Source: Pleurocapsa sp. PCC 7319
GTDB taxonomy: Bacteria > Cyanobacteriota > Cyanobacteriia > Cyanobacteriales > Xenococcaceae
Length of the DNA stretch: 58,190 nt
Direction: 5' to 3'
Assembly (NCBI RefSeq): GCF_000332195.1
Contig: NZ_KB235917.1
Span: forward strand, 1 to 58,190
Part shown: piece after piece, positions 1,198 through 18,632 of the stretch
Numbering within the stretch: the stretch's first letter is position 1
How the letters are laid out: the number at the start of each line of letters is the position of its first letter
Position numbers and translations under genes: made by a program
Notes under the pieces: model-generated
The model's input: only the letters and a program-made list of their open reading frames with translations
Told to the model about the DNA's origin: nothing
Databases searched by the model: none

Positions 1198-3810
1198 TTA
1201 ACTCGACATTAGAGCAAGACAATCTTTCATCTCCCTCAGTTGAGCGATGCTCATCTCAACTCTATTACTGACCCCATATCTTTCTTGAATATAGGCGATC
1301 GCTTTTTGCTTGCTCCAGCCAAGTCTTCTAACCTGCTTCGTAATCTGCTGTTTCAGGTGTAAAAATCCGTCCTGTTTAAATATATTTCCCTGTTCTGTAT
1401 TCTCTATCTGATTAAGGCGTTCGCATTGAGCCGAAGTCAGATAATTTTCTCTCAACCATTTCACTTCTGCTGCCGTAATTTGACCACAGGCGTATAAATT
1501 GATTAGTTCCGCCCTGGTGCTACAGTCAAAAATTCTTTCTACTACTTTTCTCGCTCTGTTTTTAATTGTGTATTCGTCTTTGCTCGGATGAGGGTAATCT
1601 GACCATTTTTTAGCGCGATCTATACCTTCACCAACAGGTATAGCAGCAGGTATAGATTCCTCACCCTGTATGGGTTTAACCCCTTCTGAGAAATCTTTTC
1701 TTTCAGAGTTTATATTTTCACTATCTACTACTTCTCTTAACTCTGAATTAAAAGTTTGAGAATTAGGTGTAGTAGGTATAGTAGGTATAGACAAGCCTTG
1801 CTGTGACTGGCTTTCGGGCTGCAACACCTCTGCTATACCTACAGAAGGTATAGTCGAAGCCTCCTGCCAAACTACTTGTCTTTTTCCTCGATGTAATTTT
1901 TGTCCCACTTTGCGCCAATTTAACATCTGGAGAATATTCGCTACCCGCATTTGTTCTCTACGACCGATCTTATTCAGCTCAAAATCAAATACATCCAGCA
2001 GTACTTGTGATATTGATACCCCTGTTCTATTCCGAATATAATCAGCAACGAAACCTGCCCATTCATCTATTATTTGGAAACGAGAATTATTGTTGAGATT
2101 TCTTTTTTCCTCTTCTTTTGACAACCACCATGTCTCTCCTTCCCGATATGCTGCCACAGCAGAAGCCCAAATAGCATCTCTTTCTTTTTTCAATCGTTTG
2201 ATATCTATTTCCTTTTTCTCTACGGGAATCACCCAATAACGCCTATTTCCTGTCGAATCTACCAAGAAACTTGAATCGTTAACCGAACCTACTATTATTG
2301 AGTGTCGAGGATAGTCTTTTGTAGTGCGTGCATATGGCTCTCGAAATGTATCTTTTCGGCAGCTCAGGAATGCCTTTAAATCTCCTGCCTGTCTCTTGGA
2401 GAAGATTTTGTCAAGCTCCCCCCATTCTTGAATCCAAGACCTGCGTAGCACCAAAAGATCGTCCTTATCTTTTCCTGACTTCATCGAATCGCCAAACCAA
2501 TCTCCCGCCAACACATCAAAAAATGTTGATTTGCCTATTCCTTGTTCTCCTTGCAGTACCAATGTATTGTCATGCTTACATCCAGGGGCATACACTCTCG
2601 CTACTGCTGCAATTAAAGTCTTTTTCAGAAAAATATCGTAAATAGGATCTGATGTCCCGAAAAACTTAGTTGATAAAGAATCTATATCCGCAAGTTCACT
2701 ATTACGGGCAACTTGGTTTAGATACTCCGCTACTGGATTGTAGGTGTTTTCTTCTGCTACTTGTGTACATACATCGATCGCTTTTGTCTTATTTACCTCC
2801 AGGCGATCGTGTTCTGCCAAATGTAGATAAAACCGCTCTAGATTAAACGGCTTTCCATCTAATTCAATCTGCATTTCTAGTTCGTTTAACCGTAAGCGAT
2901 CGCTATATTTGTCTCTCACGTAATCTAACAGGGCTGCGGTCGCTGTATTTCTTGACTGCATTTTTGAAGCGTTGGTGTTGGCAGATGAGATAGATTTGAG
3001 CCATTCTTTGTATGGCTGGATGTTTTCGATTACTTCTTCCAACGCTTCGACTCCTTGATTTACTACCAAATCGTCTAGTCCTTTCGTGGCTTCTGAATAT
3101 TCCCAAGTTCCAACTCCCACTATACATCCCGCTCTCTGGGCAAGATATCCAATTGTTTTGAGTGCTTCTTGTACTTGAGGCTTAACTGCCACATCCGAAT
3201 CAAACAGTAGATGAATTCCCCTACCGTTAGCCAAAAATGGGGCTAGAGTCGGAATCGCTTTTAGCGAGCGCTTAACCTTCCCGTTCCATACCCCCGTTAA
3301 ACATAAGCCCACCAATCCATTCGCCAACAAACAACCCGCTTTCTTCGCTCCCTCTGTTACTTCGATGGGTATTTGGGAGTTATTATGTATCCATTTCCAA
3401 AACCCTTTGTCCAGTCTTGATTCGTCGATATCTTCTGGCAGAATTGGCACATTGTATCTTTTGGCTATCTTTGACCATGCCGTTTGGTCGGGAATCAACA
3501 GAATTACTTCATTTTCCCGTCCTTTAGGAAACGTAAAATACTTTACTGGCTTCTCGCCATCTGGAAACTGGATTGCTTTATTTGGCTTGAATTGTCCAAA
3601 TTCTCTTAGTTGTCCCGTTTCTAAATCTACCGAATTGACGTACCATCCTGGACTCCCTAGATAATTACTCCAGTTCAGTAACTTGGCAATTTCTTTTTTC
3701 TCGCTAATACTCTTGGGATTCAGCTTGACCATCTCTTCTGAAACCCCACTCCCAGCAACCCATTCGCTAGCGTGCTTAGAATTGATGTTTGGTGCAAATG
3801 TATTACTCAT
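1198..3810 (-). CDS. Plasmid primase-helicase, DUF3854 plus VapE-type P-loop domain
   Basis: An 870-residue protein. The N-terminal part (to about residue 290) resembles DUF3854/TOPRIM-like domains, with HLLFDSDV near residue 203 and an ITEGAKK-like EVTEGAKKAG motif before it. The central part is a VapE/VirE-type helicase with Walker A GEQGIGKST near residue 422, then SWIQEWGELDK and GSVNDSSFLVDSTGNRRYW, typical of this family. Such proteins act in plasmid, phage or satellite replication. The frame stays open 150 bases upstream, but I chose the ATG at 3810 because GGAGG lies 6 bases before it and the upstream part overlaps a conserved mini-gene in another frame. It differs in type from the second primase (15550-18543) but shares its leader. 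Confidence 0.85.
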   Translation of the reverse strand: MSNTFAPNINSKHASEWVAGSGVSEEMVKLNPKSISEKKEIAKLLNWSNYLGSPGWYVNSVDLETGQLREFGQFKPNKAIQFPDGEKPVKYFTFPKGRENEVILLIPDQTAWSKIAKRYNVPILPEDIDESRLDKGFWKWIHNNSQIPIEVTEGAKKAGCLLANGLVGLCLTGVWNGKVKRSLKAIPTLAPFLANGRGIHLLFDSDVAVKPQVQEALKTIGYLAQRAGCIVGVGTWEYSEATKGLDDLVVNQGVEALEEVIENIQPYKEWLKSISSANTNASKMQSRNTATAALLDYVRDKYSDRLRLNELEMQIELDGKPFNLERFYLHLAEHDRLEVNKTKAIDVCTQVAEENTYNPVAEYLNQVARNSELADIDSLSTKFFGTSDPIYDIFLKKTLIAAVARVYAPGCKHDNTLVLQGEQGIGKSTFFDVLAGDWFGDSMKSGKDKDDLLVLRRSWIQEWGELDKIFSKRQAGDLKAFLSCRKDTFREPYARTTKDYPRHSIIVGSVNDSSFLVDSTGNRRYWVIPVEKKEIDIKRLKKERDAIWASAVAAYREGETWWLSKEEEKRNLNNNSRFQIIDEWAGFVADYIRNRTGVSISQVLLDVFDFELNKIGRREQMRVANILQMLNWRKVGQKLHRGKRQVVWQEASTIPSVGIAEVLQPESQSQQGLSIPTIPTTPNSQTFNSELREVVDSENINSERKDFSEGVKPIQGEESIPAAIPVGEGIDRAKKWSDYPHPSKDEYTIKNRARKVVERIFDCSTRAELINLYACGQITAAEVKWLRENYLTSAQCERLNQIENTEQGNIFKQDGFLHLKQQITKQVRRLGWSKQKAIAYIQERYGVSNRVEMSIAQLREMKDCLALMSS

Positions 3811-3905
3811 TCTGCACCTCCTATTCCATTCAAGCGATTTCCTTGCTGCTGCGCGAATGTAGAGATGCACTTTTGCTGCACCTCTTTTACAATAGAAGTA
3901 ATCAT
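3807..3905 (-). CDS. Conserved 32-residue leader mini-protein overlapping the primase start
   Basis: A mini-gene of 33 codons starting at an ATG with AGGAGG 6 bases upstream and ending in a TGA that overlaps the primase ATG (ATGA). Its product shares KCIS, QQQ, LN and GGA, in the same order and at nearly the same spacing, with the mini-gene in front of the second primase (18540-18632). That two different primase genes keep the same upstream coding pattern suggests the peptide is translated, either as a coupling leader or as a small functional protein. Family unknown to me. Confidence 0.72.
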   Translation of the reverse strand: MITSIVKEVQQKCISTFAQQQGNRLNGIGGAE

Positions 3906-3975
3906 TTATTCCCTCCTTATGGGATTTGGTTATATAAAGCGATCGCCCAAAGGCTACCAACCAATGCGATCGCTA
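3906..3975 (-). promoter_or_regulatory. Conserved leader DNA with paired HIP1 sites
   Basis: Upstream of the leader peptide, two GCGATCGC palindromes (3939-3946 and 3966-3973) flank a short spacer, followed on the minus strand by TTTATATAA, an AATCCC word and the strong ribosome binding site. The same order recurs upstream of the second leader at 18633-18706. TTATATAA may be a -10 region. Function is inferred from conservation between the two copies. Confidence 0.5.
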
Positions 3976-4109
3976 TTCCCAAACAAGAAAATTATAACCT
4001 GCGTATACGTCGGTTTCAAGCTGTTGTCTAGTTTGGATTATTGTCTAATTTGCTTGACTAAGCAAAGAAGAAAAGATTAACATCCTTTCTTAAGGAAGTT
4101 GTTTGTTAT

Positions 4110-4310
4110 ATGGCTCAGAAATATCTAAGAGACTCTAAAAACGGCAAATATGTAGAAAGTGGACAAGCAGAAATGGCATCTAGACCCATTTCCGTACGTT
4201 TACCATTAGACGTTGATGAAAAAGTTCGAGCCATACCAAATAGAACTGAGTTTTTACGAAAAGCAATTGCTAAAGCTTTACAAGAATTAGAAAATCCTCA
4301 ATCAGCTTGA
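4110..4310 (+). CDS. Small putative ribbon-helix-helix DNA-binding protein
   Basis: A 66-residue protein whose C-terminal half (RPISVRLPLDVDEKVR then an amphipathic helix with FLRKAIAKAL) fits a strand-helix-helix CopG/Arc-type fold. AAGGAAG lies about 11 bases before the ATG. Its position next to a primase gene and an XRE repressor gene suggests control of replication or copy number. Upstream, two TTGTCTA words (around 4023-4047) may be an operator. Function is inferred only from the fold-like pattern. Confidence 0.6.
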   Translation: MAQKYLRDSKNGKYVESGQAEMASRPISVRLPLDVDEKVRAIPNRTEFLRKAIAKALQELENPQSA

Positions 4311-4365
4311 ATTCGATAAAAACTATCAAATTCTTGAGAATAGTTGCTCAAGCTGACTAAACTAA

Positions 4366-4599
4366 CTACTCTTCTACTGATACCTCTCCTCGAAAGCCTT
4401 TAGCTAAATCTTCAAGATTAATTTTTAGTATTGAGCAGAGTTTTAATGTCTGCTCTGGATTTAAGCTGGGCTGAGATACTCCTTTTTCCCAGTTACTAAC
4501 AGTTTGGGGTCTAACATCTAGTGCTTTTGCAATTTGAGCTTGAGTTACGTCAACTAAATTCCTACGCAACTTAAACCACTGAGCAAAAGAAAGTTTCAT
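4366..4599 (-). CDS. XRE-family transcriptional repressor
   Basis: A compact protein of 77 residues that is nearly all one XRE helix-turn-helix domain (WFKLRRNLVDVTQAQIAK, then VRPQTVSNWEKG and LKLCSILKINLEDL). The open frame extends to 4632, but the ATG at 4599 gives the normal family N-terminus. It is divergent from the rightward operon beginning at 4884; the region between carries repeated CCAATT words, some inside a promoter, so it likely represses that operon and itself. Confidence 0.8.
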   Translation of the reverse strand: MKLSFAQWFKLRRNLVDVTQAQIAKALDVRPQTVSNWEKGVSQPSLNPEQTLKLCSILKINLEDLAKGFRGEVSVEE

Positions 4600-4648
4600 G
4601 ATAGACGACTTAATTAGGGTCGTTACCATCATATTCTTACTTGGGTTT

Positions 4649-4742
4649 TTCCAATTGATTGTATATCCAATTATATTTGATTATTCCAAATATAGCATAT
4701 ATATCCAATTAATTTGACAATAACCAAATAATTGGATAAGAT
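4649..4742 (+). promoter_or_regulatory. Operator cluster with rightward promoter
   Basis: The word TATCCAATTA occurs at 4664 and 4702 (plus strand) and inverted at 4724-4738, with a further CCAATT at 4651. A rightward promoter TTGACA (4714-4719), 17-bp spacer, TAAGAT (4737-4742) overlaps the inverted copy, so a bound repressor would block RNA polymerase. The divergent XRE gene (4366-4599) is the natural candidate regulator. Promoter boxes are read directly; binding is inferred. Confidence 0.6.
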
Positions 4743-4883
4743 GATTCTATTCAAGCAGCACTGCCAGATCAGCTAATAATGGTTTTGCTTTTGATAGAGA
4801 CTAATGAAGATTTCATAAGAAGAGTAGCCACTTTGGACGGTTACTACTCTTCTGAACCTTAATCAATTCAAGGTATTTTTATC

Positions 4884-5336
4884 ATGCCACAACAAATAAT
4901 AGTCAAGCCAGTATCGAAGACTAAAACTTGTTCACAATGCCCTCATTTCAATGACTATTCCGAACCTAATAGAAGGGGCTGGTGCGAACTTTTTGGGCAA
5001 CAAGCCAGGAAGCACCACCAGAGAACCAATGACTGCGATCTCTTTGCTGATACCGATCCTCTCGATGCTCCTCATCCTGAGTTGGCCATTGACAGCACCG
5101 TTAAAGTGATTGACGCTGATGAACACCATACAGAGTGGGCAAGCTTCATCGTCATCGGTCGCAAGTATAACTCCGAACTTTACCGCAGCACTGAGGCTTA
5201 TCTCTCTGAACCTAGCTGGTATTACGAATTAGTTGGCAGTAATTACCAACCTAACTTTAAGTCGATTTGGATAGCTGAGAATGACATCTGCGAGGCTAAT
5301 CAATCTCATCTTATCCGCACTGAAGAAATCTTTTAA
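4884..5336 (+). CDS. Hypothetical Cys-containing protein
   Basis: A 150-residue protein, first gene of the rightward operon. The N-terminal third has cysteines in CSQCPHF, GWCELFG and NDCDLF, a spacing that could hold a metal ion. The C-terminal part is mixed alpha/beta with aromatic residues (PSWYYELVG). No membrane segment. I do not recognise a named family. Codon usage and ATG context are normal for the window. Confidence 0.7.
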   Translation: MPQQIIVKPVSKTKTCSQCPHFNDYSEPNRRGWCELFGQQARKHHQRTNDCDLFADTDPLDAPHPELAIDSTVKVIDADEHHTEWASFIVIGRKYNSELYRSTEAYLSEPSWYYELVGSNYQPNFKSIWIAENDICEANQSHLIRTEEIF

Positions 5337-5406
5337 CTAAATATCAAGACGATCAAAGCAATCGCCTTTCAAACCCTTTCTCTCACTTATCTTTTCAGGA
5401 CAAAAT

Positions 5407-5793
5407 ATGATATTTCAACCATCAGACCTCATTCACTCTTATACTCACCAGCAAGCTATTGAGGACGGGTTTCAAGTTTGCGTTAGCGATCAATTTCCCA
5501 ACGATACTAGAATGTTTCGATTCCCCGTTTACTTTACTGCTGAAGTCTGGAAACTCTCTCAGGGAAAAGGTGCGATTGTCTGGGACATCTGCTATATGGC
5601 TGCTTTAGCTTCTAAGAGCCAACAAAATGATAGCTCATTCATCCAATTTTCCGTCATTGTTAATGGAGCAGAAAGAAAACCTGATGCCAAAGAAGATACA
5701 CTACCTTGCTATCGTCTCTCTGCTCAAATTGGACCACAAGATATCGATGATCCTGCACCCGTAATCACCATCATGTTTCCCGACGAAACATAA
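5407..5793 (+). CDS. DUF6573-like protein
   Basis: A 128-residue protein beginning with IHSYTHQQAIEDGFQV, which resembles the IHSYTR-x-AIEDG signature I associate with DUF6573 proteins of plasmids and phages; function unknown. The rest is a beta-rich domain with VYFTAEVW and VITIMFPDE. It is the second gene of the operon, 70 bp after the first. The family call rests on memory of the N-terminal motif. Confidence 0.65.
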   Translation: MIFQPSDLIHSYTHQQAIEDGFQVCVSDQFPNDTRMFRFPVYFTAEVWKLSQGKGAIVWDICYMAALASKSQQNDSSFIQFSVIVNGAERKPDAKEDTLPCYRLSAQIGPQDIDDPAPVITIMFPDET

Positions 5794-5816
5794 TTCTTTA
5801 CTTAATTGAACCCATC

Positions 5817-6668
5817 ATGACTTGTTTAACCAGAGAACTGAAAAATTCTGATAGTCCTCTATATCAATGGTTTCAGTCGAAACAATCTCTTTGTGCTAAT
5901 CGCTTAATCAGTAATCACAATGCAGAAATGAACAGAAACCAGATCATCAAACCGTCTGGGGAAATTAGAGATTTTGCCCTTCTTGGAACTGCTTTTGTCT
6001 ATGCTTTTCGATGGCACTTGGGTTTTTTCGAGTCCAGTTTTGACCAAACAATAGCCAGTAATCATCTGACTGCGACCACTGCCAATCAACTATTATCAGC
6101 AAAAACTGTTGAAGAAAAAGCTGTTGCCTGTCTTATATTTGCTGCTTTTGAAGCCGAATTCCGTTCTGGAACAGTACATGAAATAGCCTCTGTTTTGATG
6201 AATCAGGACAACAACAAACTCAAGCCTGAGCTGAGTTACATCCACAACTTGATTAATGATTTAGTTAACTTGATTCAATCTATATCATCAGTTTGGGATG
6301 CTACCGACAGTAATTTAACCAGACATAAATACTTTTTGAATCCTACTTTTATCGGTAGCTCATTTATCAATGCCGATGCCCAGCAAATTGTAAATGGCTC
6401 TCTTATCAAGTGTTTTACCACTCTCAAAAAACATCCTTTAACTAGGCAACACCTCTGGCAGCAAATAGCCTATGTTCTCTTAGACTGGGACAATCAATAT
6501 CAAATCAATCAAGTTTGTTGGTACTACTCTAGACAAAAAGCCTTATTTATCTATTCCACAAAGTCTTTATTCAAGGATTTACCAGGATTGAGAACCGAGT
6601 TTCACGATTTTCTGACAGCAAGTTATTCCCATGACCACGACTTCTGCCACAGCCTCGTAGATTTCTAG
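5817..6668 (+). CDS. Hypothetical 283-residue helical protein
   Basis: A mostly helical, soluble protein with aromatic and histidine-rich stretches (FAFRWHLGFFESS, QVCWYYSRQ) and no clear motif. It starts 23 bp after the DUF6573-like gene, so the two are probably co-transcribed. It has no counterpart in the second module (15.4-20.8 kb). I do not recognise its family. Confidence 0.68.
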   Translation: MTCLTRELKNSDSPLYQWFQSKQSLCANRLISNHNAEMNRNQIIKPSGEIRDFALLGTAFVYAFRWHLGFFESSFDQTIASNHLTATTANQLLSAKTVEEKAVACLIFAAFEAEFRSGTVHEIASVLMNQDNNKLKPELSYIHNLINDLVNLIQSISSVWDATDSNLTRHKYFLNPTFIGSSFINADAQQIVNGSLIKCFTTLKKHPLTRQHLWQQIAYVLLDWDNQYQINQVCWYYSRQKALFIYSTKSLFKDLPGLRTEFHDFLTASYSHDHDFCHSLVDF

Positions 6669-6688
6669 TGGAATTAATTTCATCAACA

Positions 6689-6722
6689 GCGATTGCCCGA
6701 AGGGCAGTGGCAGAGCCAATCG
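6689..6722. repeat. Dispersed palindromic repeat (GCGATTG...CAATCGC)
   Basis: A 34-bp imperfect hairpin with outer arms GCGATTG and CAATCGC and inner GCCC/GGGC pairing. Related copies, containing GGCAGTGGCAAAGCCAATCG or close variants, occur at 15221-15330 and inside a coding region at 16134-16170. It lies between the 283-residue gene and the next small gene. It looks like a cyanobacterial REP-type repeat. Confidence 0.6.
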
Positions 6723-6773
6723 CTCTTTAGAGATCTCCCACCCATCTTAAATCTTTATTACTCGGCTTTTATC

Positions 6774-7070
6774 ATGACTTCAGCTCCTCTTCTCTCAATT
6801 GAAATCAGAGCCTCTGAACCTCTCGAATCTTCTGACCCTGAATTTGACCAGCTTCCTACCATCACTATCTTTAAAGACGAGAATAATAACTATTTCTTGG
6901 CTTCTGGTTTTAAAGAAATTGAAACCGTTATCTTAGCTATGATTTCTTACTTTAATGCTACTAGCCATCTTTATTCTCCTCTCTTTCGTATCCAAATTCT
7001 TCCTGGTAGCGAACTTGATGCTTTTCTTTACAAGGTTCGTCATGAAAGTTCCTCCAGAGGAAGACTTTAA
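6774..7070 (+). CDS. Small conserved module protein, copy 1
   Basis: A 98-residue protein. The start at 6774 is fixed by comparison with the paralogue at 19247-19549: both align from the first residues and share PTITIF, NNYFLASG, YIQILPG-like RIQILPG and a C-terminal YESP/HESS segment, and the 20 bp before each ATG are nearly identical (ACTCGGCT, then TTAT). Composition is mixed alpha/beta with no membrane segment. Function unknown; conservation in both modules argues it is a core component. Confidence 0.75.
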   Translation: MTSAPLLSIEIRASEPLESSDPEFDQLPTITIFKDENNNYFLASGFKEIETVILAMISYFNATSHLYSPLFRIQILPGSELDAFLYKVRHESSSRGRL

Positions 7071-7637: not shown

Positions 7638-7868
7638 ATGGAATCTTTACCAATTGAATACAAATTCGAGTCTGAGCGTTTCCGACGCTTTCTTCACGAT
7701 CATCCACAACAAGCACACGAGTATGCTGTTTCCCACTTTGAAGACTATCTCGCTATTCTTCACGAGTACCGACTACTCCAAGCTAAACATGACCAATTAC
7801 AGAATGAGCTAATTAAACTTCGTTGCCGTAAATCTCCTTCACTTCCTTCTTTTCTCTCTCGTTCTTGA
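7638..7868 (+). CDS. Small conserved module protein with weak NblA-like pattern, copy 1
   Basis: A 76-residue protein closely similar to the product of 19752-19988 (common core SLPIEYKFESERFRR and EYRLLQAKHDQLQNELIKL). It is two amphipathic helices with a basic Pro/Ser tail. The order PIE, Phe/Arg-rich helix, PQQA, then a long helix ending in Leu/Lys recalls NblA, the small phycobilisome-degradation adaptor carried by cyanobacteria and some of their phages, but the match is loose. An alternative is a small coiled-coil DNA-binding accessory protein. Confidence 0.72.
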   Translation: MESLPIEYKFESERFRRFLHDHPQQAHEYAVSHFEDYLAILHEYRLLQAKHDQLQNELIKLRCRKSPSLPSFLSRS

Positions 7869-8826: not shown

Positions 8827-10521
8827 TTAAACTTTGTCAAATTTTTCTGGGGGATATTGACCACTTAATTGCTCTAGCTCTTTTAATTGTTGAAAACAAG
8901 CTGAATCAGGTAGTATTTTCTGCGCTCTTATTCCTTGTCTGACTAGAGAAATCCATACGGAATAAAGTTCTTCCCAGTCATTTGCTTTTATTTGAATTAA
9001 TGCCATTTCTTCCATCCCCAATGCTCCACACAAACAGAGAGCTTGTGTAGCTAATTCAATATTTTTGTTTTCCAGAGAAATGTTCCACAATTCTTCTGCT
9101 AAGGCTTGAAAACGTCGGGCATAAAATTCGTAAGCTTGTTGAACTTGTTCTGGTATTGTTACTTTATATACTGATTCATCCCACAAGCCAGAACTAGCGC
9201 GAAAAGAAAGAAGGTTATTAGAACCTAAAAGATGAATTCTTCGGTCAACAATTAATTCTTTGGCATGAGAACCACCCAGCCAGAAAACTTGTACCGCAGG
9301 TATTCCTTCTTTGGTTAAAATACCTTGTAATTGTTCCCTAACTTGTTCTGGAATTGGTCTTTCTTCCTCTTTTTCACTCTGGGCAATTCCGTATCCAATT
9401 AAAATCCAAACTCCTTTGTTAGCCAACTTTTGGAGACGTTTAATAAATCTGTCGTTGACAACTCTTGCACTTATCCAAGGAGAATAAATAAGAACTTGAT
9501 GTTTAGCAGAATCTAAAATGTTTGCTAGTTCCTGAGAAATTTTACCACCACGTAACTGTTCTACAGTACCAGACTTAGTATTTGTTGGTTCAGAACTAGA
9601 TTCCTGTTGTTGGCGGAGATTATCTAATGCCTTCTGTCTAACTATTTCAACTCTCTTTTCAACTTCAGCATTTTTGCGTTCGGCAACTTTTTGACATTGA
9701 TAGTTAATTTCTTCATTTGTCAATTGGCACAAATCATTTAAAGCTATCTTCTCTTCTATCAATAAGTTATTTAGCCAAATAGAAGCATCCTCTAAAACCT
9801 TTCCCCCTTCTCTAGCTTGAATCCTAAAATTATCTTCTAAGACATCAAAAATAACAATTACTGATAAAGTTCTCCAGATTATCTTGGCAATATCTTTTAC
9901 TTCAAAATCAATAACAAATTTATCCTTTTCAAAAGAGTGCAACCCTAAATTTAAATTTTGAATTAGTTTTCGTAATTCGGAAAGTGATAAGCTGGCATAG
10001 CTTTCAATCCTATCATCAATCGATATATAGATATAGTTAGTTAGATAGTCTATTGCTTCATTTTCATTTTCAATAGGAGAAGATTCTACAATTTTGCTAA
10101 ATGGTTTTGATATTGCATAAATAATTTGAGTTTCTGGAGATTCTGGGACGGAATGATCGCGATAAAATTCCTGTCCAACAGGGGTAAGTTTAATAACAGA
10201 TTCTGGTTCTGTTTCCAAAGTATGTACATTCCGCAGAGTTGCTGTAGTGTTTTTAATAAATATCGGGTCTAACCCTAGCACAGTGGCTAATTCATCTTCA
10301 GTTGCTGGAGGGTCAAATTCGACACCTGCGCGGAAAATAAAATCTTCTAATATATTCAACTGGCGCGATTTAGCAATTTCAATTTTAATAGGAGTTTGAG
10401 ATACATAGTAGCCTAACTGACGAGCAGCCAAAACGGATAAGCTGGGGCTTTTCCGTTCAATTTCTTCTACTATGTGCTTTAATTCTGGGTCAATTGGTCT
10501 ATCAGAGGATGTCAGAAACAT
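8827..10521 (-). CDS. PLD-family nuclease-like protein, partner of SF1 helicase
   Basis: A 564-residue protein. The C-terminal half holds a phospholipase-D-like domain: LIYSPWISARVV, then the HKD motif HAKELIVD near residue 417 followed by GSNNLLSF. Only one HKD motif is visible, so the active form would be a dimer, as for bacterial PLD nucleases. The N-terminal half is helical with a wHTH-like region (TEDELATVLGLDP) and a coiled-coil stretch around residue 290-305. Its start lies inside the helicase gene (20 bp overlap), implying translational coupling. Role inferred: effector of a two-gene defence pair. Confidence 0.84.
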   Translation of the reverse strand: MFLTSSDRPIDPELKHIVEEIERKSPSLSVLAARQLGYYVSQTPIKIEIAKSRQLNILEDFIFRAGVEFDPPATEDELATVLGLDPIFIKNTTATLRNVHTLETEPESVIKLTPVGQEFYRDHSVPESPETQIIYAISKPFSKIVESSPIENENEAIDYLTNYIYISIDDRIESYASLSLSELRKLIQNLNLGLHSFEKDKFVIDFEVKDIAKIIWRTLSVIVIFDVLEDNFRIQAREGGKVLEDASIWLNNLLIEEKIALNDLCQLTNEEINYQCQKVAERKNAEVEKRVEIVRQKALDNLRQQQESSSEPTNTKSGTVEQLRGGKISQELANILDSAKHQVLIYSPWISARVVNDRFIKRLQKLANKGVWILIGYGIAQSEKEEERPIPEQVREQLQGILTKEGIPAVQVFWLGGSHAKELIVDRRIHLLGSNNLLSFRASSGLWDESVYKVTIPEQVQQAYEFYARRFQALAEELWNISLENKNIELATQALCLCGALGMEEMALIQIKANDWEELYSVWISLVRQGIRAQKILPDSACFQQLKELEQLSGQYPPEKFDKV

Positions 10522-13500
10522 CGATTAAACCTCCATATAGGCGAATAACATCTGAAACTTTGGAGTATATCGGGAACTGAGTAAACAGTTCATGACAACC
10601 GATAATCACCAGCAATTCTTGAGCGCGAGAAAAAGCAACATTCACCCGTTCTGGTTTTTTGGCAAATCCAACATTTTTCTGATTGTTGTTTCGTACCATG
10701 CTGACAATGATGACTTGTCTTTCCATTCCTTGAAATCTGTCAACTGTACCAGTACGAATATGCAGAGAAGGAAACTTTTTGGGGTCTATTGTTGATTCAA
10801 TTAACTTTAATTGGCGACCATAGAAAGTAATTATTCCTATTTCTTTTCTGGGTTGTCCTTGGTTCACTCGAACCGACCAAGTTTGCTCGAATTGTTGGCA
10901 AATTTTTTCAATGAGTTTAATTTCTTTCTCGTTAATCGATGAAGTTCCATCTTGTTGTTCTCTAAATTCTCGATTTTGAGGAGTTTTTACCCAAACTATA
11001 TGGTTATTATCTTGGATATTATAATTAGCTAGATTATGACTGCGTTGCTCGTCTGGATTAGTCAAACCACATTCAAGATTATCTTCATAAAACTGATTGA
11101 TTGCTCCCATAATTTGAGGGTGCATTCGATACTGAATGGTCAGCATCTTTTTAATACTCTCTGGAGCAGATTCAAATAAATTTTTGAATAGAGACTCTTT
11201 TAAGTAATTAAGCTCTTCTGTTGTAGTACCTAATTCTTCAGCAATTTCTTCTATAGTGTCATTGTTGAGCATAGGTGGTAACTGTCGATGGTCGCCCACT
11301 AGCACTAATTTTTTGGCTTTTAAAGCAGGAATTAACAACTCAGGAGGAGTGCATTTACTGACCTCATCAATAATGACTACATCAAAAGATTCAAACTCTT
11401 TAGAAAAATCTCCCTTAGCTGATTGACTACAAGTAATGCCGATGACATTGGCGTTATCCAAATAAATTCTTCTTAGTTCGTGACGATTTTGCTCAGAAGG
11501 ATTTTTTAGTCCCTCAATCCAGTCGGACATTAAATTTTGATATCGGTTGAGATAAGCCTCTATTACCCCTAATTGTTGTTGCCAAACCTCGAACTGAAGT
11601 TTAAATCTGCGTAAGAAAGTTAGCTCGAATAACTCTGTAAATTCTTCTTCTGGTTTGAGAGAGTCAGGAATAGTTTGCCAATATTCCTGCCACCAATACC
11701 GTTTCTGCTCTCTATTGTCTAGATGCTGCTGTAGTTGAGCTTTAATTTGCTTGATTTGCTGCTCGAATTGCTGTAATTCTCTGTTGGATTCAAGAATAAT
11801 TTGGTTTTGAGTTTCTATCTCGTCATTAATTTTAGTTTTTGTACTTGAAAGTATTTCTGAAGGGTTAAATGATTCAGTCAACGCTTCAAGCCGAACAACA
11901 CAATTTTGCCAATAATTTATTTGGGCTGATAATCGAGATGCTTCAATCGTTATTTTGGCTGGGTTTTGAAGATACTCAGAGGCTAAATCTTTAAGTTGGA
12001 CTGGAATCTGTGGTATTTGCGACAGATTATGTAAAAGTTTATTGACAGAATCGGTACTAATCTCAACGTCTTGACTGACAGTTGTTAATTCTTTTTGAGT
12101 TTTGAATATTTGTTGTTGAATTTCTGACAACCATCCTTCGAGGTTACTTAGTTCCTTTTCCAGTAATTGAAGCTGTTGTTTTGTCTGAATATCTAATTCG
12201 TTAAGCCAGCGATCGACATTGGTAACAATACTATTAACAATCTTAGGAGTAACAGACTCAATAATAATTCTGGAATTGTTTGGTTCTGAACCTCGAACAA
12301 TCTGATGTCCCTGTCTTCTAATTGCTTCCAATGTGGCAACTGCTTTCACTCTACGACTTGGTTGACACCATCCCAGACTCGAAGCAACTGCTAATATTCC
12401 TTCGATCGCCCGTTTCCAAAAACTCAGTGGCTTTTTTATTTCGGCAATATTAAGTCGAGTAATTTGCTTTAGTTGATGAATCGCTGAGACAACATCTAAA
12501 TTCTTAACAGGCAGCATTTTAGTTGCCGAAGCAATAGTTTCTTCACTAGGTAAATGGATGGTTGTCTTATCGAAAGCATCTGTAATTTGCCTGTCTAATT
12601 CATTAGCGATTGCATAAGCTTTATCCCATTGACTGTACTGCTCGATTAAGCTATCAAAGCCAGTTAAAGATTCTGGTAATTGTTTATGCCATGATGAATC
12701 TGGAATTGTAGAGATAAAATTTTGTAGTTGTTTAGGAAAAGTCATCAGATTTTCGCTAAAGTTTTTGCGCTTTTCTAAACAATTTTTGAGTGTTGTCTTT
12801 ATTTGTGTCGAAGCACTCGACGACCACTGCTTTAATTCAATTTGGGCTGAACTAATGCTAGATTGATGGCTTTGAATTTTAACTAGCTCTTGTTGTTGAT
12901 TCTGTTGAGAAATAAAGTTTTGTTGTTGATTCTGTTGCAGCTTTTTAAAAGAGTCATTGTTTTGTGTAAACAATTGTTGCTTAGAATTAAGTGTGGAAAT
13001 TGCTTGAGCAACTTTGTCTGCATACTCCAAAGTGTGCTGAGTTTTTTTGACTATATTTTCCAACATCCCATCTTTAAAGCATTTTGCCATAGCTAAAAAA
13101 TGTATGTCAGGACAGGAAAAGCTCAGTTCAGCAACAATATCTTTTGCCGAGCGAACATTTTCTGCTAACTGTTTAGCTGAATCGTTTTTCTTTAAATAAG
13201 GATCGAGATTCTTTAACCAAGGTCGATCCCAATCTGCTGTCGATTGAGAATCAAGTAAATCTTCTAAATTGGCAAATAAAGATTCAACTTCCTGTTTTTT
13301 ATTTTGGGCAATCTTATGAATGTCTAGTTTGTTTTGATAATCTGCCTCTAGAATTTCTTGATGAGCTATTAGTTGTTTTTGCTTTGGCTCAAATTGCTCT
13401 TCGGTTATGAGATAAGCACTAAATTGTTCTGCTGATGCTAATAACTGACGCAAAATTTTAGCAAGTTCGAGTTTAGCATTAAGCCTTTGTTCGCAGTCTG

Positions 13501-14881
13501 CGGAGGTATTTTGCAGCCAAGTCTTAATTACATTCTCTTCTAGAAATGGCATTCCTTCTAGTCCAACAGTGCTTTTATTTCCTTTCCTGACAGCACGGAT
13601 TGCTGGATTGTGTTGTAATCGTGACAGAGCATTATCTACGGCTAAATTAGCTTGAGAAGCGATTAAGGTACGTCCACCTCGTAAAGCAACTTGATAGCAA
13701 ATTTCTGCGATTACCGTAGTTTTACCTGTTCCTGGTGGTCCTTGAATTAATGCCAAATCTGGTGCAGACAGCACCGTCTCTACGGCAGCTTTTTGAGAGG
13801 AATTGGTAGTTTTTAATAATAAATCTTGTGACTGAATTTGGACTATTTCTCTGGGTTCTCTAGCTTGAGAAGCATCAAACAAAAACTGACCTAAATAGGG
13901 ATTTTGAGTTCTTCCCTTTTCTAAGTTCTTTAAAGCTTTTTTCTTACGGTTAACTTGAGTCAGATCGCCAACTGCCTCGAAAGATAGCAGTCCTTCTTGT
14001 GGTAACGCATAATGTCCTTCAGCAAGGGAATCAAATATCTCAGAATCTAAACTAATTTTGAGAAAGCTGTTTTCAGAATCTATTGATTCAATCGTTCCTA
14101 ATTCTCTTCCATCGCTATTACTCGAACTATTTTCTAACAGCTTGATGTTTTGATTACGCGCCCGTTTAGCTCTTCTCCAAAAATCATCTAGTGTGATGCT
14201 ATTTTCAGCTTGACTATCTACAGTTGCTGATTCAGCATCAATACCAAAGGTAATATTTCTGGTAGCTTCACCGTAATTGTGACTGACAAAAGGTACGCAG
14301 AATTGTTTCTCCTTAGCTATACGTTCTTCAACTTCAGCGAAGACTTTCCAAGCTTCTAGCTGTTGTTCTGTCGGGATACAATCCTGTTTAAATGGCGTAT
14401 CTGCCATTCGTTCTATTGCTTGGAGTGGCACTCCAATACGATATTGATGATTGGAGCGAAGACGTAGATAAAAAGACTTGGCAAAACTATCTTTTGTCCC
14501 CTCACGCTTGGGGCGCAACCGAGCATAAATAATTCTTATACCACCATATCCATCACGATCGACAATAGCTATTAACTTTAAAGTTGACCCGTGCTCTTCA
14601 AGCTGTATTGGTAATTCGAGATTGTCGAAGCCTGTTGCTAAAGTTAGTTCCCATTTTTGCTCCCCTAAATTATGTCCTTGTTCGATGCGACGTACATAAA
14701 ATAAATAGGGGGTTTGACCAAAGAGGTCGAACATTAATTGTTCGGCACGATTACGGCGATCTTGAAATTCTGGATAGTTTTCTAAAGCTGCTTCGCCTTC
14801 AATATCCCGAATGAAACTATCAATTGCTTTCCCTGTAAATTTATAACCCCAATCTTCATAAGGATTGTATATAGTTGCCAT
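10502..14881 (-). CDS. Large SF1 (Upf1/DNA2-like) helicase of a two-gene defence candidate
   Basis: A 1,459-residue protein. Helicase motifs of the COG1112 type are all present: GPPGTGKTTVIAE (about residue 382), VIIDEVSKCTPPELL (about 1171), VGDHRQLPPML, IQYRMHP (about 1250), DRFQGMERQVIIVS (about 1387) and NVAFSRA. Between motifs I and II lies a long Gln-rich coiled-coil insertion (roughly residues 440-1130). The N-terminal 350 residues are a beta-rich domain, probably nucleic-acid binding. Helicase plus PLD protein is the core of Mokosh systems; here the two are separate genes and I see no kinase gene. First gene of the operon. Confidence 0.88.
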   Translation of the reverse strand: MATIYNPYEDWGYKFTGKAIDSFIRDIEGEAALENYPEFQDRRNRAEQLMFDLFGQTPYLFYVRRIEQGHNLGEQKWELTLATGFDNLELPIQLEEHGSTLKLIAIVDRDGYGGIRIIYARLRPKREGTKDSFAKSFYLRLRSNHQYRIGVPLQAIERMADTPFKQDCIPTEQQLEAWKVFAEVEERIAKEKQFCVPFVSHNYGEATRNITFGIDAESATVDSQAENSITLDDFWRRAKRARNQNIKLLENSSSNSDGRELGTIESIDSENSFLKISLDSEIFDSLAEGHYALPQEGLLSFEAVGDLTQVNRKKKALKNLEKGRTQNPYLGQFLFDASQAREPREIVQIQSQDLLLKTTNSSQKAAVETVLSAPDLALIQGPPGTGKTTVIAEICYQVALRGGRTLIASQANLAVDNALSRLQHNPAIRAVRKGNKSTVGLEGMPFLEENVIKTWLQNTSADCEQRLNAKLELAKILRQLLASAEQFSAYLITEEQFEPKQKQLIAHQEILEADYQNKLDIHKIAQNKKQEVESLFANLEDLLDSQSTADWDRPWLKNLDPYLKKNDSAKQLAENVRSAKDIVAELSFSCPDIHFLAMAKCFKDGMLENIVKKTQHTLEYADKVAQAISTLNSKQQLFTQNNDSFKKLQQNQQQNFISQQNQQQELVKIQSHQSSISSAQIELKQWSSSASTQIKTTLKNCLEKRKNFSENLMTFPKQLQNFISTIPDSSWHKQLPESLTGFDSLIEQYSQWDKAYAIANELDRQITDAFDKTTIHLPSEETIASATKMLPVKNLDVVSAIHQLKQITRLNIAEIKKPLSFWKRAIEGILAVASSLGWCQPSRRVKAVATLEAIRRQGHQIVRGSEPNNSRIIIESVTPKIVNSIVTNVDRWLNELDIQTKQQLQLLEKELSNLEGWLSEIQQQIFKTQKELTTVSQDVEISTDSVNKLLHNLSQIPQIPVQLKDLASEYLQNPAKITIEASRLSAQINYWQNCVVRLEALTESFNPSEILSSTKTKINDEIETQNQIILESNRELQQFEQQIKQIKAQLQQHLDNREQKRYWWQEYWQTIPDSLKPEEEFTELFELTFLRRFKLQFEVWQQQLGVIEAYLNRYQNLMSDWIEGLKNPSEQNRHELRRIYLDNANVIGITCSQSAKGDFSKEFESFDVVIIDEVSKCTPPELLIPALKAKKLVLVGDHRQLPPMLNNDTIEEIAEELGTTTEELNYLKESLFKNLFESAPESIKKMLTIQYRMHPQIMGAINQFYEDNLECGLTNPDEQRSHNLANYNIQDNNHIVWVKTPQNREFREQQDGTSSINEKEIKLIEKICQQFEQTWSVRVNQGQPRKEIGIITFYGRQLKLIESTIDPKKFPSLHIRTGTVDRFQGMERQVIIVSMVRNNNQKNVGFAKKPERVNVAFSRAQELLVIIGCHELFTQFPIYSKVSDVIRLYGGLIDVSDIL

Positions 14882-15367
14882 TTGATGCTCGATCGCTACA
14901 CTATGTTTAGTGTTCCCATTCTCATCAAAAAAAAATCGACTTGTACGGGGTATGAATCATGGCAACAAGCTTGTCCAAAAGAATCAACTTTTTGCAAATG
15001 CTTCAGATTATTTTGTAGGTTTTATATTAGCCTCGGCTCAAATTCCCCGTAATTCACTTTACAACCAGCTTCATTCAGAATTACGGTCTGGCTGTCTAAA
15101 TTTTGGTCATTTGTACTAACGCAAGCATACCGATTTTCAACCTTAGCCTCTCCATCCTGGAAAAGTGTCGCCCTAAAGGACTAGCTTCGCGTCGCAAAAG
15201 TTAGTAGTTTTGCATCAACAAGGCGATCGCCTAAAAGGCGGTGGCAAAGCCAATCGCAAGACTGCGGTGAGCTTTGCTCAATCGCGCTCCGCGCAGTGGC
15301 AAAGCCAATCGCCAAAAGGGCAGTGGCAAAACGCTGGCGACAGCTTCAATTTTCAAATTACTCTCAT
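14882..15367. other. Intergenic region with hairpin and repeats
   Basis: A 486-bp region between the helicase start and the small leftward gene at 15368. It contains an inverted repeat CCGTAATTC (15047-15055) / GAATTACGG (15078-15086), and the dispersed repeat cluster described separately. The open frame at 14910-15119 lacks a ribosome binding site and any recognisable pattern. The promoter of the helicase operon should lie near 14890-14950. Confidence 0.45.
15221..15330. repeat. Cluster of dispersed palindromic repeats
   Basis: At least two units ending in GGCAAAGCCAATCGC (one near 15257, one near 15312) plus a partial third, each preceded by GCGATCGC- or GCGCTCCGCGC-type palindromes. They match the single copies at 6689-6722 and 16134-16170. 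Tandem clustering suggests local amplification of a REP-like element. Confidence 0.6.
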
Positions 15368-15562
15368 TTATCGAGACACCGTTCTGATTACTGATTTTCC
15401 TTTTTCCTTTGCCGATTCTGAAGTATAAAAAATCTCAGACGACTCGATCACTTCTCCTCTCTCATCCACTATCGAAAACTGATAGCACTTTCCTGGAGAA
15501 TAGTACACCGCTAGAATACAGCCTTGGATTACTAGTACTTCTTTGATTCTTATTTTGACCAT
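15368..15562 (-). CDS. Small hypothetical protein downstream of primase 2
   Basis: A 64-residue protein with a beta-rich N-terminus (VKIRIKEVLVIQGCILAVYYSPG) and a short helical C-terminus (SESAKEKGKSVIRTV). Its ATG overlaps the last codons of the primase gene by 13 bp, so it is probably translated by coupling. Family not recognised; it could also be the fortuitous continuation of the open region. Confidence 0.5.
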   Translation of the reverse strand: MVKIRIKEVLVIQGCILAVYYSPGKCYQFSIVDERGEVIESSEIFYTSESAKEKGKSVIRTVSR

Positions 15563-18543
15563 TTCTCCAAAAGACTCATTTCCACCAATTCTTCTATCAT
15601 TTCTAGCTTCACCATCTCACCCTCAATCCTCTCTACAGTAAATGGCGATGCCCATGACCAGTGACCTGGACAGTCAGAAATTGTGACCTTATCTCCTACT
15701 GTGATGGGTGATTTTATGGCTGATGATGGATGAGCTAAAGTATCCGTCACATCTAGAACCGTCTGACTTTGAGACTTCTCTTGTGACGACGGTGACGGCA
15801 AAATCGAAAACTCTTCTACTGAATTGTTTTTCTCCAGTTGAACCTCATCTGGCATATTACATTTAACTTTGATTTCTCTACCATTATTATTTTCAGATAA
15901 CTTTTTATTTTTACCATCACTGTCGTCACATCTATCACCAGCAATACTTTCAGCCATCACATATTCTATAACATCCGTCACCTTATCCATCACCATCGTC
16001 CACAGCTTGTTGATGACATTCGTATTACTTGCCACTGGACTAGTCTTGATTTCTAGAGATGGATTTCCCGTGATCATCGGCGGCTGTTTATCTATTTCAC
16101 TGCGTATCTTCAAACCCTCAAAATAAGAACCAAAGCGATTGGCTCTGCCACTGCGCGGAGCGCAATCGCGTTTCTTATTAATATCTAAACTCAATTGGTT
16201 CTTAACCAAATCCGATAACAAATTCACAAATCGGCGTAAGCTAACAGGATGAGTCCCACTGTTCTGGCAATATTCCTTGTAATTGGCATACAGCCATATA
16301 TCGGTATTCAGATACCAAGTTGCTGAATTACTATCTTTATCACGCTTGGCTACACCTATATTTGTTTTTGCTGACGCATCATAAACCACAAAGTTATCCA
16401 GCCAATCAGCGATCGGATTTGTTTCCACCAACGTACTCGCTTTCATTGCCGCTAATGATGGTACAGCCGTCTCGTAATTCTTTACTATTCGAGTCGCTTC
16501 CTCTCCATCCATCTCCAGCACCCAATTGAGTAAGCCTGGTATATAAGGCACAAATTCACCATATATCTCCCCATTCCGATGCTCTATCAAGTTCCTTTGG
16601 CGATCGCTCCTAATTCGATTAAACATTGGAATAGAAATTCTTCTTCTTTCCAATCCACTTGTATAATCGCTACTTTGGATTACTTCATTAGTGGTTACAA
16701 TCACCAAGGCATTAGGATTAAACCCTCCTGATGACTGTTTAAACTTAACTTCAAATGGAAGAGTATCTTGACCCGTTAAGGCCTTTAGAGTACTAACAGA
16801 AGCAGCAAACCTTTCTGAATCGTTAATCAACAACATCCGCTTGCCAGCTATTGATGCTGTTTCAAATCTCTCTCCTTCCAGTTTTTTCAAGGTAGTAGTG
16901 TGAGTATTATTTGCTCCCACTAAAGCGATCGCCAGACGAGTAAAGGTACTTTTACCTGTTCCTCCCGCACCAACTAACTCTAAAAACTTCTGCCAATCTG
17001 TTCTACCTGTAACTACTCCCAATAAATACGCCCTCATTAGTTGGACCAAATTTTGGTCGCCATTACACATCTCCAACAACCATTCTTTGATCGGGTCACA
17101 AGTGGCTAGCATTTCGTAGTTGTAAGGCAGACACCACCTCAATCTATTTCCTGGAGCATGAGGTGTTAGCTTTTTTGTCTTTAGATCTAACACTCCATTG
17201 AGCAACGGGACACATCCTTCTGCTTCATCCCACTTTCGCACGGCTAAATCCATCTTCAACAGTGCCATTACACCATTAACAAAGCTAACCGTGAAACTCG
17301 GCTTCTTCTTACTCGATTGGGCAATTGAATCAGCTAGTCTTTCTACTTCTGACTTTACTAATTGACCCACAAATTCAACAGGTTCAACGCTCCAGATTCC
17401 TTCTATCACGGAACTATAGCGATACCATTCCTGTAACTCAGTGTTCCATGCTAACTGCGATCGATAACGCTCCGCTAACCAAAACCCGATATCTGATTGT
17501 GACCAGTTTGGAAGATTAGCTAGTCTTTCTGACTCTTCCTTGTTAATCTTTTCTTTCTTCTGTCTAGCAGCAGCTTTAAAGATGGCTGATTCTAATTTCT
17601 CGACTAATTCATTAGTACTAAATTGAGGGTGTGCCTCCACCCAGTCAGTTATATCTCCCTTCTCTGGCATCTTTGACCATACTTCTGTAGGAGACAAAAC
17701 TAGACATGACAAGTTGACTTCCTGACAAGCTCGTTTGACTAGCTCAGCTTTTTTCTCCCCTGCTTCGTCATGGTCAGGAAAATAGACTAATCCTTTTGCT
17801 CCCGACTCCTTAAGTTTTGTTAAGTCAGAAGCTATACTTTTCTCTTCCCAGTTAGATCCTTGCCAGGTGATTGCTGATAGGGCTTTCTTTCTTGCAGTCT
17901 CAACACACTCTTCCCCTTCAACTCCTAGAACCCATTGGTTATGGCAGTGTTTAACTGCTTCGGATAATCTGTATGCTCTCCATTCTTTTGAACCCTTCTT
18001 CCACTGAACTAGACCATTCGATTTAACATGACCTTGCCTAATGGTTTTCTCCTTAATGCCATCACTGTTTATCCACTCAAAGCGACTTACCCATTGAGTT
18101 TTAGAGTACCAGTAACGGGTTTCTATCGCTTCTTGGGGTACTCCTTGTTTCTGTAGCCAATTTGGTATCGCTTTTGATTCTTGTACGGGACTATCACAAG
18201 CCGCTACATTCAGTCGGGCTAATTTTATCTCAGACTTGGGTTTGATTGACTTCTTACGACAGTCCCCTGCGGAGGGAATACCGTCCGCAGGGCTGTCGCG
18301 CTTTTTATTAGAATTTGGAGACTGACTTTCTTTTACTTCGCTCCAGGGACGTATCGCTTCTCTTATTTCTTTAGTACTACAATCGCATTTGAAAGCTTGA
18401 TATTTACCGTTCTTTTTGTTGACCTTGAAGCCACCGTCACCGCAGACTGGACAGGTGCAGTGGTATTCAATTGATGTTTCTCTGACTATATTCAGACGAT
18501 CTAGATGGTCTAATATTTGGAATGGTGCAATCAATCCAATCAT
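15550..18543 (-). CDS. Multidomain primase-helicase (Zn finger, TOPRIM, SF3 helicase)
   Basis: A 997-residue protein. N-terminus: CHC2-like zinc binding (CTCPVCGDGG then FKCDC, residues about 29-58). Middle: TOPRIM-like segment with VEGEECVE and FPDHDEAG (about 205-270). C-terminal half: D5/P4-type helicase with LVGAGGTGKSTFTR near residue 525, MLLINDSERF and VIVTTNEV. This is the P4-alpha-like layout of autonomous plasmid or satellite replication proteins. The ATG at 18543 has GGAGG 7 bases upstream and overlaps the stop of a conserved mini-gene. Two palindromic repeats are embedded in the coding sequence, at 16134-16170 and 18257-18298. Confidence 0.88.
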   Translation of the reverse strand: MIGLIAPFQILDHLDRLNIVRETSIEYHCTCPVCGDGGFKVNKKNGKYQAFKCDCSTKEIREAIRPWSEVKESQSPNSNKKRDSPADGIPSAGDCRKKSIKPKSEIKLARLNVAACDSPVQESKAIPNWLQKQGVPQEAIETRYWYSKTQWVSRFEWINSDGIKEKTIRQGHVKSNGLVQWKKGSKEWRAYRLSEAVKHCHNQWVLGVEGEECVETARKKALSAITWQGSNWEEKSIASDLTKLKESGAKGLVYFPDHDEAGEKKAELVKRACQEVNLSCLVLSPTEVWSKMPEKGDITDWVEAHPQFSTNELVEKLESAIFKAAARQKKEKINKEESERLANLPNWSQSDIGFWLAERYRSQLAWNTELQEWYRYSSVIEGIWSVEPVEFVGQLVKSEVERLADSIAQSSKKKPSFTVSFVNGVMALLKMDLAVRKWDEAEGCVPLLNGVLDLKTKKLTPHAPGNRLRWCLPYNYEMLATCDPIKEWLLEMCNGDQNLVQLMRAYLLGVVTGRTDWQKFLELVGAGGTGKSTFTRLAIALVGANNTHTTTLKKLEGERFETASIAGKRMLLINDSERFAASVSTLKALTGQDTLPFEVKFKQSSGGFNPNALVIVTTNEVIQSSDYTSGLERRRISIPMFNRIRSDRQRNLIEHRNGEIYGEFVPYIPGLLNWVLEMDGEEATRIVKNYETAVPSLAAMKASTLVETNPIADWLDNFVVYDASAKTNIGVAKRDKDSNSATWYLNTDIWLYANYKEYCQNSGTHPVSLRRFVNLLSDLVKNQLSLDINKKRDCAPRSGRANRFGSYFEGLKIRSEIDKQPPMITGNPSLEIKTSPVASNTNVINKLWTMVMDKVTDVIEYVMAESIAGDRCDDSDGKNKKLSENNNGREIKVKCNMPDEVQLEKNNSVEEFSILPSPSSQEKSQSQTVLDVTDTLAHPSSAIKSPITVGDKVTISDCPGHWSWASPFTVERIEGEMVKLEMIEELVEMSLLEKWSK
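16134..16170. repeat. Dispersed palindromic repeat inside primase CDS
   Basis: An in-frame copy of the repeat family seen at 6689-6722 and 15221-15330, here inverted (GCGATTGGCTCTGCCACTGC followed by GCGGAGCGC). It codes for the arginine-rich stretch DCAPRSGRANR between the helicase core and the C-terminal region. It likely arrived as a mobile REP-type insertion tolerated in a linker. Confidence 0.55.
18257..18298. repeat. Hairpin repeat inside primase CDS
   Basis: A long inverted repeat with arms containing CCCTGCGGA and TCCGCAGGG and outer CGACAG/CTGTCG, separated by about 10 bases. It encodes RDSPADGIPSAGDCR in the linker after the zinc finger. It is a second, different palindromic family inserted in frame into the same gene. 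Confidence 0.55.
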
Positions 18544-18632
18544 GCTGCACCTCCATCTTTATTCAAGTGGTCTACTTGCTGCTGTGACAAACCAGAGATG
18601 CACTTTTTCACTACATCAAATAAAATATACAT
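18540..18632 (-). CDS. Conserved 30-residue leader mini-protein before primase 2
   Basis: A 31-codon mini-gene whose TGA overlaps the ATG of the primase gene. The product contains KKCISGLSQQQVDHLN and ends in GGAA, matching in order and spacing the leader at 3807-3905 (KCIS, QQQ, LN, GGA). AGGAGG lies 12 bases before the ATG, a slightly long spacing. Role inferred: leader for coupled translation, or a small protein regulating the primase. Confidence 0.7.
   Translation of the reverse strand: MYILFDVVKKCISGLSQQQVDHLNKDGGAA

Follow-up and report, generated by a model that had tools for sequence, protein, structure and literature searches.

Why should two primase-helicase genes of different domain make-up be preceded by the same mini-gene? 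The question arises in Pleurocapsa sp. PCC 7319, in a stretch of 58,190 nucleotides (contig NZ_KB235917.1, positions 1 to 58,190; hereafter the window) that is part of a 103,222-bp contig, C2, of a 7.39-Mb genome. Both genes lie on the minus strand and encode presumed replication initiators (Reps): Rep gene 1 (1198..3810; P0003, 870 aa) specifies a DUF3854-VapE primase-helicase and Rep gene 2 (15550..18543; P0004, 997 aa) a D5_N-DUF5906, P4-family primase-helicase. Directly upstream on the same strand are leader 1 (3807..3905, 32 codons) and leader 2 (18540..18632, 30 codons), each of which matches a covariance model of the family and ends in a TGA that overlaps the Rep ATG as ATGA. An earlier, sequence-only reading had described these mini-genes and suggested that they form a functional unit, perhaps a small regulator or a translation coupler; its coordinates, translations and overlaps were all accurate. 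Here we argue that the leader probably forms the coding portion of a portable module that controls replication initiators in cis, and that it would act there as a translational coupler.

The two window Reps gave no BLASTP match to each other at 0.01, the best alignment being a P-loop stretch with an E value of 0.12, and neither P0003 nor P0004 matched the NCBIfam model of CyRepA1 (NF042913) at E values up to 1. The zinc finger and TOPRIM part at the N terminus of Rep 2 were assigned by reading the sequence, without a model hit. Both proteins have SF3/VapE-like ATPase cores, and each matches the Pfam family of the other weakly, below the cut-off, so their motors are likely to be distantly related. 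The enzymes, which had been called unrelated, are therefore so by BLASTP but likely not in their motors.

Both leaders lie inside one direct repeat (3807–3923 and 18540–18656) of 117 nt, 71% identical and gapless. When modules 1 and 2 are aligned without gaps from the Rep ATG, similarity extends about 125 nt upstream; downstream it reaches only to about nucleotide 24, with a common TTGCACCA, and then drops. By eye, the Rep N termini 'MIGLIA' and 'MSNTF' look as if they had been added before cores such as the PFNILEHL of distant homologues. The AGGAGG noted ahead of both leaders is present at unequal spacing: 6 nt separate it from the leader 1 ATG (3905) and 12 nt from the leader 2 ATG (18632). 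Neither window leader has an NCBIfam match, and an Rfam scan of the window returned no match above the gathering score.

The leader recurs elsewhere in the genome and in the family. A third copy, on the 6.39-Mb contig C7 of the same genome, precedes a VapE gene 89% identical to Rep 1, and all five near-full-length P0004 homologues listed from the same genus have a leader (four in G469, one in G198; 61–67% identical). A first covariance model, built from 8 leaders, gave 25 matches, spread over 8 of the 27 genomes of the family and over 2 of its 8 genera: four in the genome under study, four in G469, one in G198, two each in G504 and G505, three in G509, eight in G503 and one in G482. A second model, built from 18 leaders, found the same eight genomes among 388 of the order and two among 388 of the class (G000 and G198). 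Neither 388-genome draw gave a match outside the family, under stricter filters, so weak relatives may escape these searches. By contrast, some P0003 homologue occurs in 214 of the 388 class genomes. Upstream of distant VapE relatives no leader was recognized by eye among the loci listed; relatives elsewhere, to which the sequence-only reading had pointed as a check, thus carry leader matches within the family, and the distant ones outside it gave none. No P0004 relative was found on viral contigs. Among plasmid records, blastn with module 2 gave three matches, significant only for Chondrocystis NIES-4102, and neither NIES-4102 leader is annotated in the PLSDB gene table, which is incomplete.

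We examined 24 of the 25 copies, leaving out L107, whose match begins at model position 51 and lacks the 5′ part. Classed from the start of the protein, the Reps behind these leaders comprise 17 TOPRIM-D5/P4 primase-helicases, 3 DUF3854-VapE proteins and 4 DnaD/O-like proteins, with no BLASTP match between the three classes at 0.01. The third type is identified through G504b, which matches the PHROGs families 'DnaD-like helicase loader', 'replication initiation protein' and 'O-like'; the G482 protein, in which the leader is fused in frame to a DnaD-like protein and which has no PHROG match, and the other two members show BLASTP relationship to G504b. Among the Reps, several are short or truncated at a contig end (34, 149, 209, 474 and 583 residues). 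The proposal that different enzymes share the leader as a functional unit was thus borne out and extended to a third Rep family.

Comparison of leader and Rep sequences indicates that the module precedes three Rep families and that exchange has taken place between two or more of these. We base this on approximately unbiased (AU) tests over a 19-row leader tree, in which a single clade was rejected for the VapE leaders (p 0.031) and for the TOPRIM leaders (p 0.007), and on the pair G469a/G469b, whose leaders differ by 1% in nucleotides and whose Reps differ by 29% in residues. The pair G503a/G503e shows the opposite, with leaders 33% and Reps 11% different over the part available. A single clade of the two DnaD-like leaders was not rejected (p 0.41). 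The 19-row sets, used for trees and for codon-position and frame tests, omit the identical G504a and G503f, the fused G482a, the frame-shifted G509b and the insertion-bearing G505b; because the rows are related to one another, p values are approximate. The near-identity of the G469 leaders, together with the duplication of neighbouring small genes, would also fit recently duplicated, non-functional DNA whose likeness stems from copying of promoter regions. Many leader pairs differ by at least about 30% in nucleotides, yet retain frame and overlaps, and we regard this explanation as extremely unlikely.

What is conserved in the leader is above all its reading frame. A stop/start overlap of the form ATGA or GTGA is found in 22 of 24 copies, whose leaders are 27–32 codons long save for one of 46 codons. 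The frame has stayed intact over an estimated 179 terminal-branch substitutions, for which a random-substitution simulation with 19 leaders gave a log10 P of about −6.6. Residues are held less tightly. Differences fall on codon positions 1, 2 and 3 at 27, 35 and 38%, so the synonymous bias that had been suggested as a check is weak. The ratio of nonsynonymous to synonymous differences per site (pN/pS) ranged from 0.23 to 1.16 for the leaders of 11 chosen pairs, compared with 0.15–0.31 for their Reps. Over all 153 leader pairs (the 19-row set minus G469b, as for the regional values) it was 0.67, with mean pS 0.56 and mean pN 0.37, and over 27 close pairs it was 0.64. By region, close pairs gave 0.32 for codons 4–6, 0.78 for the leader's internal hairpin (hairpin A, below), 0.70 for the codons containing the Rep Shine–Dalgarno (SD) sequence and 0.55 (bootstrap 0.43–0.78) between the two hairpins. 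The peptide motifs by which the window leaders had been recognized hold for that pair and fade across the 19 aligned leaders: KCIS occurs in 5, QQQ in 3, GGA in 10 and LN, read from the alignment at columns 25–26, in 11; a count of 16 for LN results if an N-terminal LN is included. The exact peptide pattern is thus absent from most copies, and the frame is conserved in the family. Two of the motifs coincide with RNA elements: K-C-I/T falls in hairpin A's right arm, whereas G-G-A is the Rep SD. We conclude from these comparisons that the frame is conserved and that residues appear weakly constrained, most of all at Y-I-[LV].

These data bear directly on whether the leader encodes a small trans-acting protein that regulates replication. 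The open frame conserved in 22 of 24 copies, the invariant I5 and the constrained Y-I-[LV] are what such a regulator would predict. The spread of differences over codon positions, with pN/pS of 0.55–0.8 outside codons 4–6, disfavours the idea of a strongly conserved protein. It also speaks against a trans-acting regulator, as do three aberrant copies: the G482 leader fused to its initiator, the G505b leader (L118:4459–4599) with a repeat-like, in-frame insertion of about 16 codons that leaves the frame intact, and L107 without its 5′ part. We therefore think a trans-acting regulator quite unlikely. In a further aberrant copy, G509b, the leader is frame-shifted and extends for 35 nt within a Rep open reading frame (ORF) of 149 residues.

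The proposed module includes two RNA hairpins. Hairpin A lies within the leader; in leader 1 it is a 9-bp stem in codons 7–15 (3861..3885, minus strand; pair counts from 18 leaders), and in leader 2 folding places it at 18597..18617 (minus strand). It was folded in 21 copies and hairpin B in 19, the covariation alignment having 18 rows. Columns 51–60 pair with columns 66–75 in 73% of cells, with both sides changed in 21 cells compared with 11.2 ± 2.7 in shuffles, and the covariation score of 0.329 (0.198 ± 0.027 in shuffles) was reached by none of 500 shuffles; slid versions of the stem had a lower percentage paired and lower covariation. Hairpin B is predicted to form between the Rep SD and an anti-SD in the early Rep codons, at 3791..3818 in module 1, where it encloses the start codon, and at 18518..18555 in module 2, where it masks the Rep SD (both minus strand). 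Its cells are paired in 77% of cases, and for one representative or more of every one of the three Rep classes the early anti-SD is predicted to fold onto the Rep SD. The predicted energy at 19 Rep starts (without G504a, G503f, G469b, G482a and G509b) averaged −13.4 kcal/mol, compared with −8.0 kcal/mol at 34 SD-bearing ORF starts of the same loci (p 0.0003); removal of 11 hidden Rep starts from this background brought its mean to −6.0 kcal/mol (n=23, p 8e-6). The mean predicted unpaired probability was 0.17 for the Rep SD and 0.54 for the leader SD, and in 18 of 19 cases the Rep SD had the lower value. The support for the predicted hairpin B as a mask of the Rep SD is energetic and comparative.

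The right arm of hairpin A is also complementary to the Rep SD, with 81% of cells paired, so that the pairings could be exchanged. This would suit a ribosome-stalling attenuator in which the peptide senses a metabolite, an ion or translation stress and switches the hairpins. The alternative pairing is frequent but shows no covariation, its percentage paired being reached by 484 of 500 shuffles, and we discarded it; the leaders have no conserved run of a single amino acid, and their low residue conservation argues against nascent-peptide sensing. An attenuator of this kind is very unlikely.

We instead favour translational coupling. The module would consist of a HIP1 stem-loop, the leader SD, a leader of about 30 codons that contains hairpin A, the Rep SD and the first 6–8 or so Rep codons, whose anti-SD would pair with the Rep SD as hairpin B. 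A ribosome translating the leader would melt hairpin B, stop at the UGA and reinitiate at the overlapping AUG or GUG, so that Rep output would follow the rate at which the leader is translated. The regulated step would be initiation on the leader, and hairpin A or the HIP1 stem-loop may mediate its control. By inference, the module would control copy number and replication would proceed from these Reps. The suggestion of a translation coupler is supported by the start/stop overlap, the predicted SD masking and a frame kept without strong residue conservation; that of a small regulator is not favoured.

Several observations weigh against coupling by an exchanged module. Leader and Rep distances correlate over 66 TOPRIM pairs from a comparison of 12 Reps (r 0.68, Mantel p 0.001), so exchange is superimposed on common descent; the leader tree is poorly resolved, with 3 of 16 inner branches well supported and 5 of 24 rows left out. 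I5 is present in 19 of 19 leaders and C13 in 15 of 19, and codons 4–6 have a pN/pS of about 0.3, so the N terminus of the peptide may have a role of its own. For hairpin A, stricter measures fall within the shuffle range (pairs changed on both sides, 136 of 500; further pair types, 180 of 500), and because row relatedness was not removed either, support for it as a conserved RNA structure within the leader is moderate. Hairpin B has no covariation beyond column make-up, with 78 to 204 of 500 shuffles reaching the five measures, which we attribute to one arm being the SD itself; it is also weak in G509c and own_C4. In window module 1 the predicted order of accessibility is reversed, with the leader SD unpaired at 0.24 and the Rep SD at 0.38. 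Leader 2, with its SD 12 nt from the start, and leaders of the 'MYILNG' type, with their weak SD, are predicted to initiate poorly, and a small predicted hairpin of the TCCC/GGGA type partly covers the leader's own SD in most copies. This hairpin is predicted at 18642–18659 in the window and at the same place in other copies; its arms seem to co-vary (TTCC/GGAA, TTTC/GAAA). On the plus strand the same interval, over the leader-2 SD, was the sole terminator-like site in a scan restricted to loops of 3–8 nt, which found none near leader 1.

Upstream of both leaders stand the twin GCGATCGC palindromes that had been reported there, at 3939..3973 and 18675..18706 (strand not assigned), and they are the cyanobacterial HIP1 octamer. 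Two HIP1 octamers with at most one mismatch each occur in 24 of 24 copies, starting at −66 to −76 and −39 to −50, and form a stem-loop. HIP1 is described as abundant in cyanobacteria and of unknown function in the part of PMC3219970 consulted, and the genome has 104 twin pairs with 10–25 nt between them, which rules out the pair by itself as a special signal. Many of the loops are homologous among copies, in either orientation: the own_C7 loop scored 8 forward and 35 reversed against G503c/d, where the 99.9% point of shuffles was 19. Inverted loops between HIP1 arms (for example window 3939–3973 and L039 3227–3262) may have arisen when the template was switched at the hairpin, or selection may have favoured a flip; a literature search for 'loop inversion' gave no match for the term among the papers listed. 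A promoter-like TTGAAA-17-TATAAT (3991..4019, minus strand; 11/12, a consensus match only) ends 85 nt before the start of leader 1. Copies own_C2a and G503g have a common loop, and in both a promoter-like site ends 85–90 nt before the leader, so the stem-loop would sit at the mRNA 5′ end there; no other copy has a promoter-like site at that distance.

Such stem-loops with variable loops are also what one would expect if the region served chiefly as the target of an antisense RNA or as a primer RNA, in the manner of pSYSA or ColE1, with the open frame secondary. Published parallels exist: in pSYSA, CyRepA1 is flanked by an abundant antisense RNA and a small gene whose translation is dispensable for the copy-number effect (sections of PMC9978351), and incompatibility of the Pseudomonas module REx-C has been mapped to a stem-loop that belongs to a putative antisense RNA (sections of PMC5304414). 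Antisense promoter-like sites recur within subgroups of the 22 modules scanned, near +126 in five, near −3 in four, at +194 in all three VapE modules and at +12 in three (counts without a chance expectation over the set). No site is common to all copies, which speaks against an antisense promoter as a general module part; those inside Rep follow conserved codons, and conservation of the frame needs a coding reason. We consider a mainly antisense or primer function unlikely, and an antisense RNA layer can coexist with leader coupling. A bolder extension is that cells trade the module horizontally as a self-contained device for setting copy number, with specificity residing in the HIP1 loop close to the mRNA 5′ end and loop flips creating new compatibility groups. 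We rate this as rather improbable; if true, a single flip between HIP1 arms could give an antisense RNA a new pairing partner, and replicons with different Rep types could coexist, several to a cell or plasmid.

In the plasmids IncFII (tap-repA) and IncI/B (repY-repZ), Rep translation is coupled to leader translation, and systems of this type have an established antisense RNA and in some cases also an established pseudoknot. The anatomy of the cyanobacterial module is, by analogy, that of leader-coupled Rep translation. A close counterpart is S004-repA of SGI1, where the leader overlaps repA, an inverted repeat or stem-loop is proposed to mask the SD and start, and leader translation is required in cis, an early stop in S004 abolishing RepA synthesis without rescue in trans; it differs in its helper-activated promoter and longer overlap (the last four codons), and the available portion of the article does not report a coupled leader common to three Rep types (PMC7826253). 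REx-C is likewise a short region of stem-loops, an apparently rep-coupled leader-peptide gene and a Rep ribosome site, common to four non-homologous Rep families and exchanged between them, with the first Rep codons probably part of the module; replication persists when its leader gene, repI, is largely deleted (excerpts of PMC5304414). The cyanobacterial module differs in the hairpin inside its leader, its HIP1 stem-loop and its other Rep families, including a DnaD/O-like one, and is not known to be related to REx-C in sequence. Replication, swaps and incompatibility were assayed for REx-C (PMC5304414). The pSYSA locus ssr7036/asRNA1-slr7037 (CyRepA1) of Synechocystis 6803 shares the cyanobacterial host, a small gene upstream of a primase-helicase Rep and RNA-based control; it differs in its 64-aa gene, a spacer before rep, dispensable translation and a ColE1-like model (PMC9978351, in part). 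We class the module with leader-coupled, exchangeable control modules because the proposed working design is the same, although it is not known to share sequence with them. The earlier statement that no description exists holds for this leader sequence in the literature searched, but not for the kind of module, already known from the consulted parts of PMC5304414 and PMC7826253; what appears new by this comparison is a cyanobacterial variant with three Rep types.

Contig C2 has at least four replication-type genes. Outside the window it includes a CyRepA1 (NF042913) gene (L083:7820–11341, minus strand) and a DnaD/O-like initiator (L082:6991–8766, plus strand) whose preceding mini-ORF, unlike the leaders described here, has 47 codons, carries GGAGG and overlaps the initiator as TAATG; by its sequence this is apparently the same design with another leader. 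Two small gene families of unknown function are duplicated on the plus strand beside the Rep modules, one at 7638–7868 and 19752–19988 (86% amino-acid identity) and a second at 6693–7070 and 19247–19549 (54%); similar small ORFs adjoin the C7 VapE copy in L039, by eye. Ribbon-helix-helix (CopG-like) small genes lie near the modules at 18776–19003 (minus strand, above the cut-off) and 4110–4310 (plus strand, below the cut-off), with another recognized by eye at L039:3289–3519 (minus strand), and these layouts recall copG-rep; in pMV158 (copG-repB) a small CopG-type gene lies beside rep. Between the two Rep genes, at 8827–14881 (minus strand), a PLD-domain protein and an AAA_11/AAA_12 helicase match the PADLOC Mokosh models MkoB and MkoA, and a Mokosh-type anti-phage system is likely there. 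A reverse-transcriptase fragment at 21030–21455 (plus strand) is followed by an IS66 transposase.

The locus illustrates how seemingly conserved peptide motifs can be RNA signals. If coupling is correct, there would be no Rep without leader translation, and the module could supply control parts for vectors. In the literature consulted, the setting of Rep levels is described for few cyanobacterial plasmid systems, and replicon modularity, as in Pseudomonas, is now seen in cyanobacteria as well.

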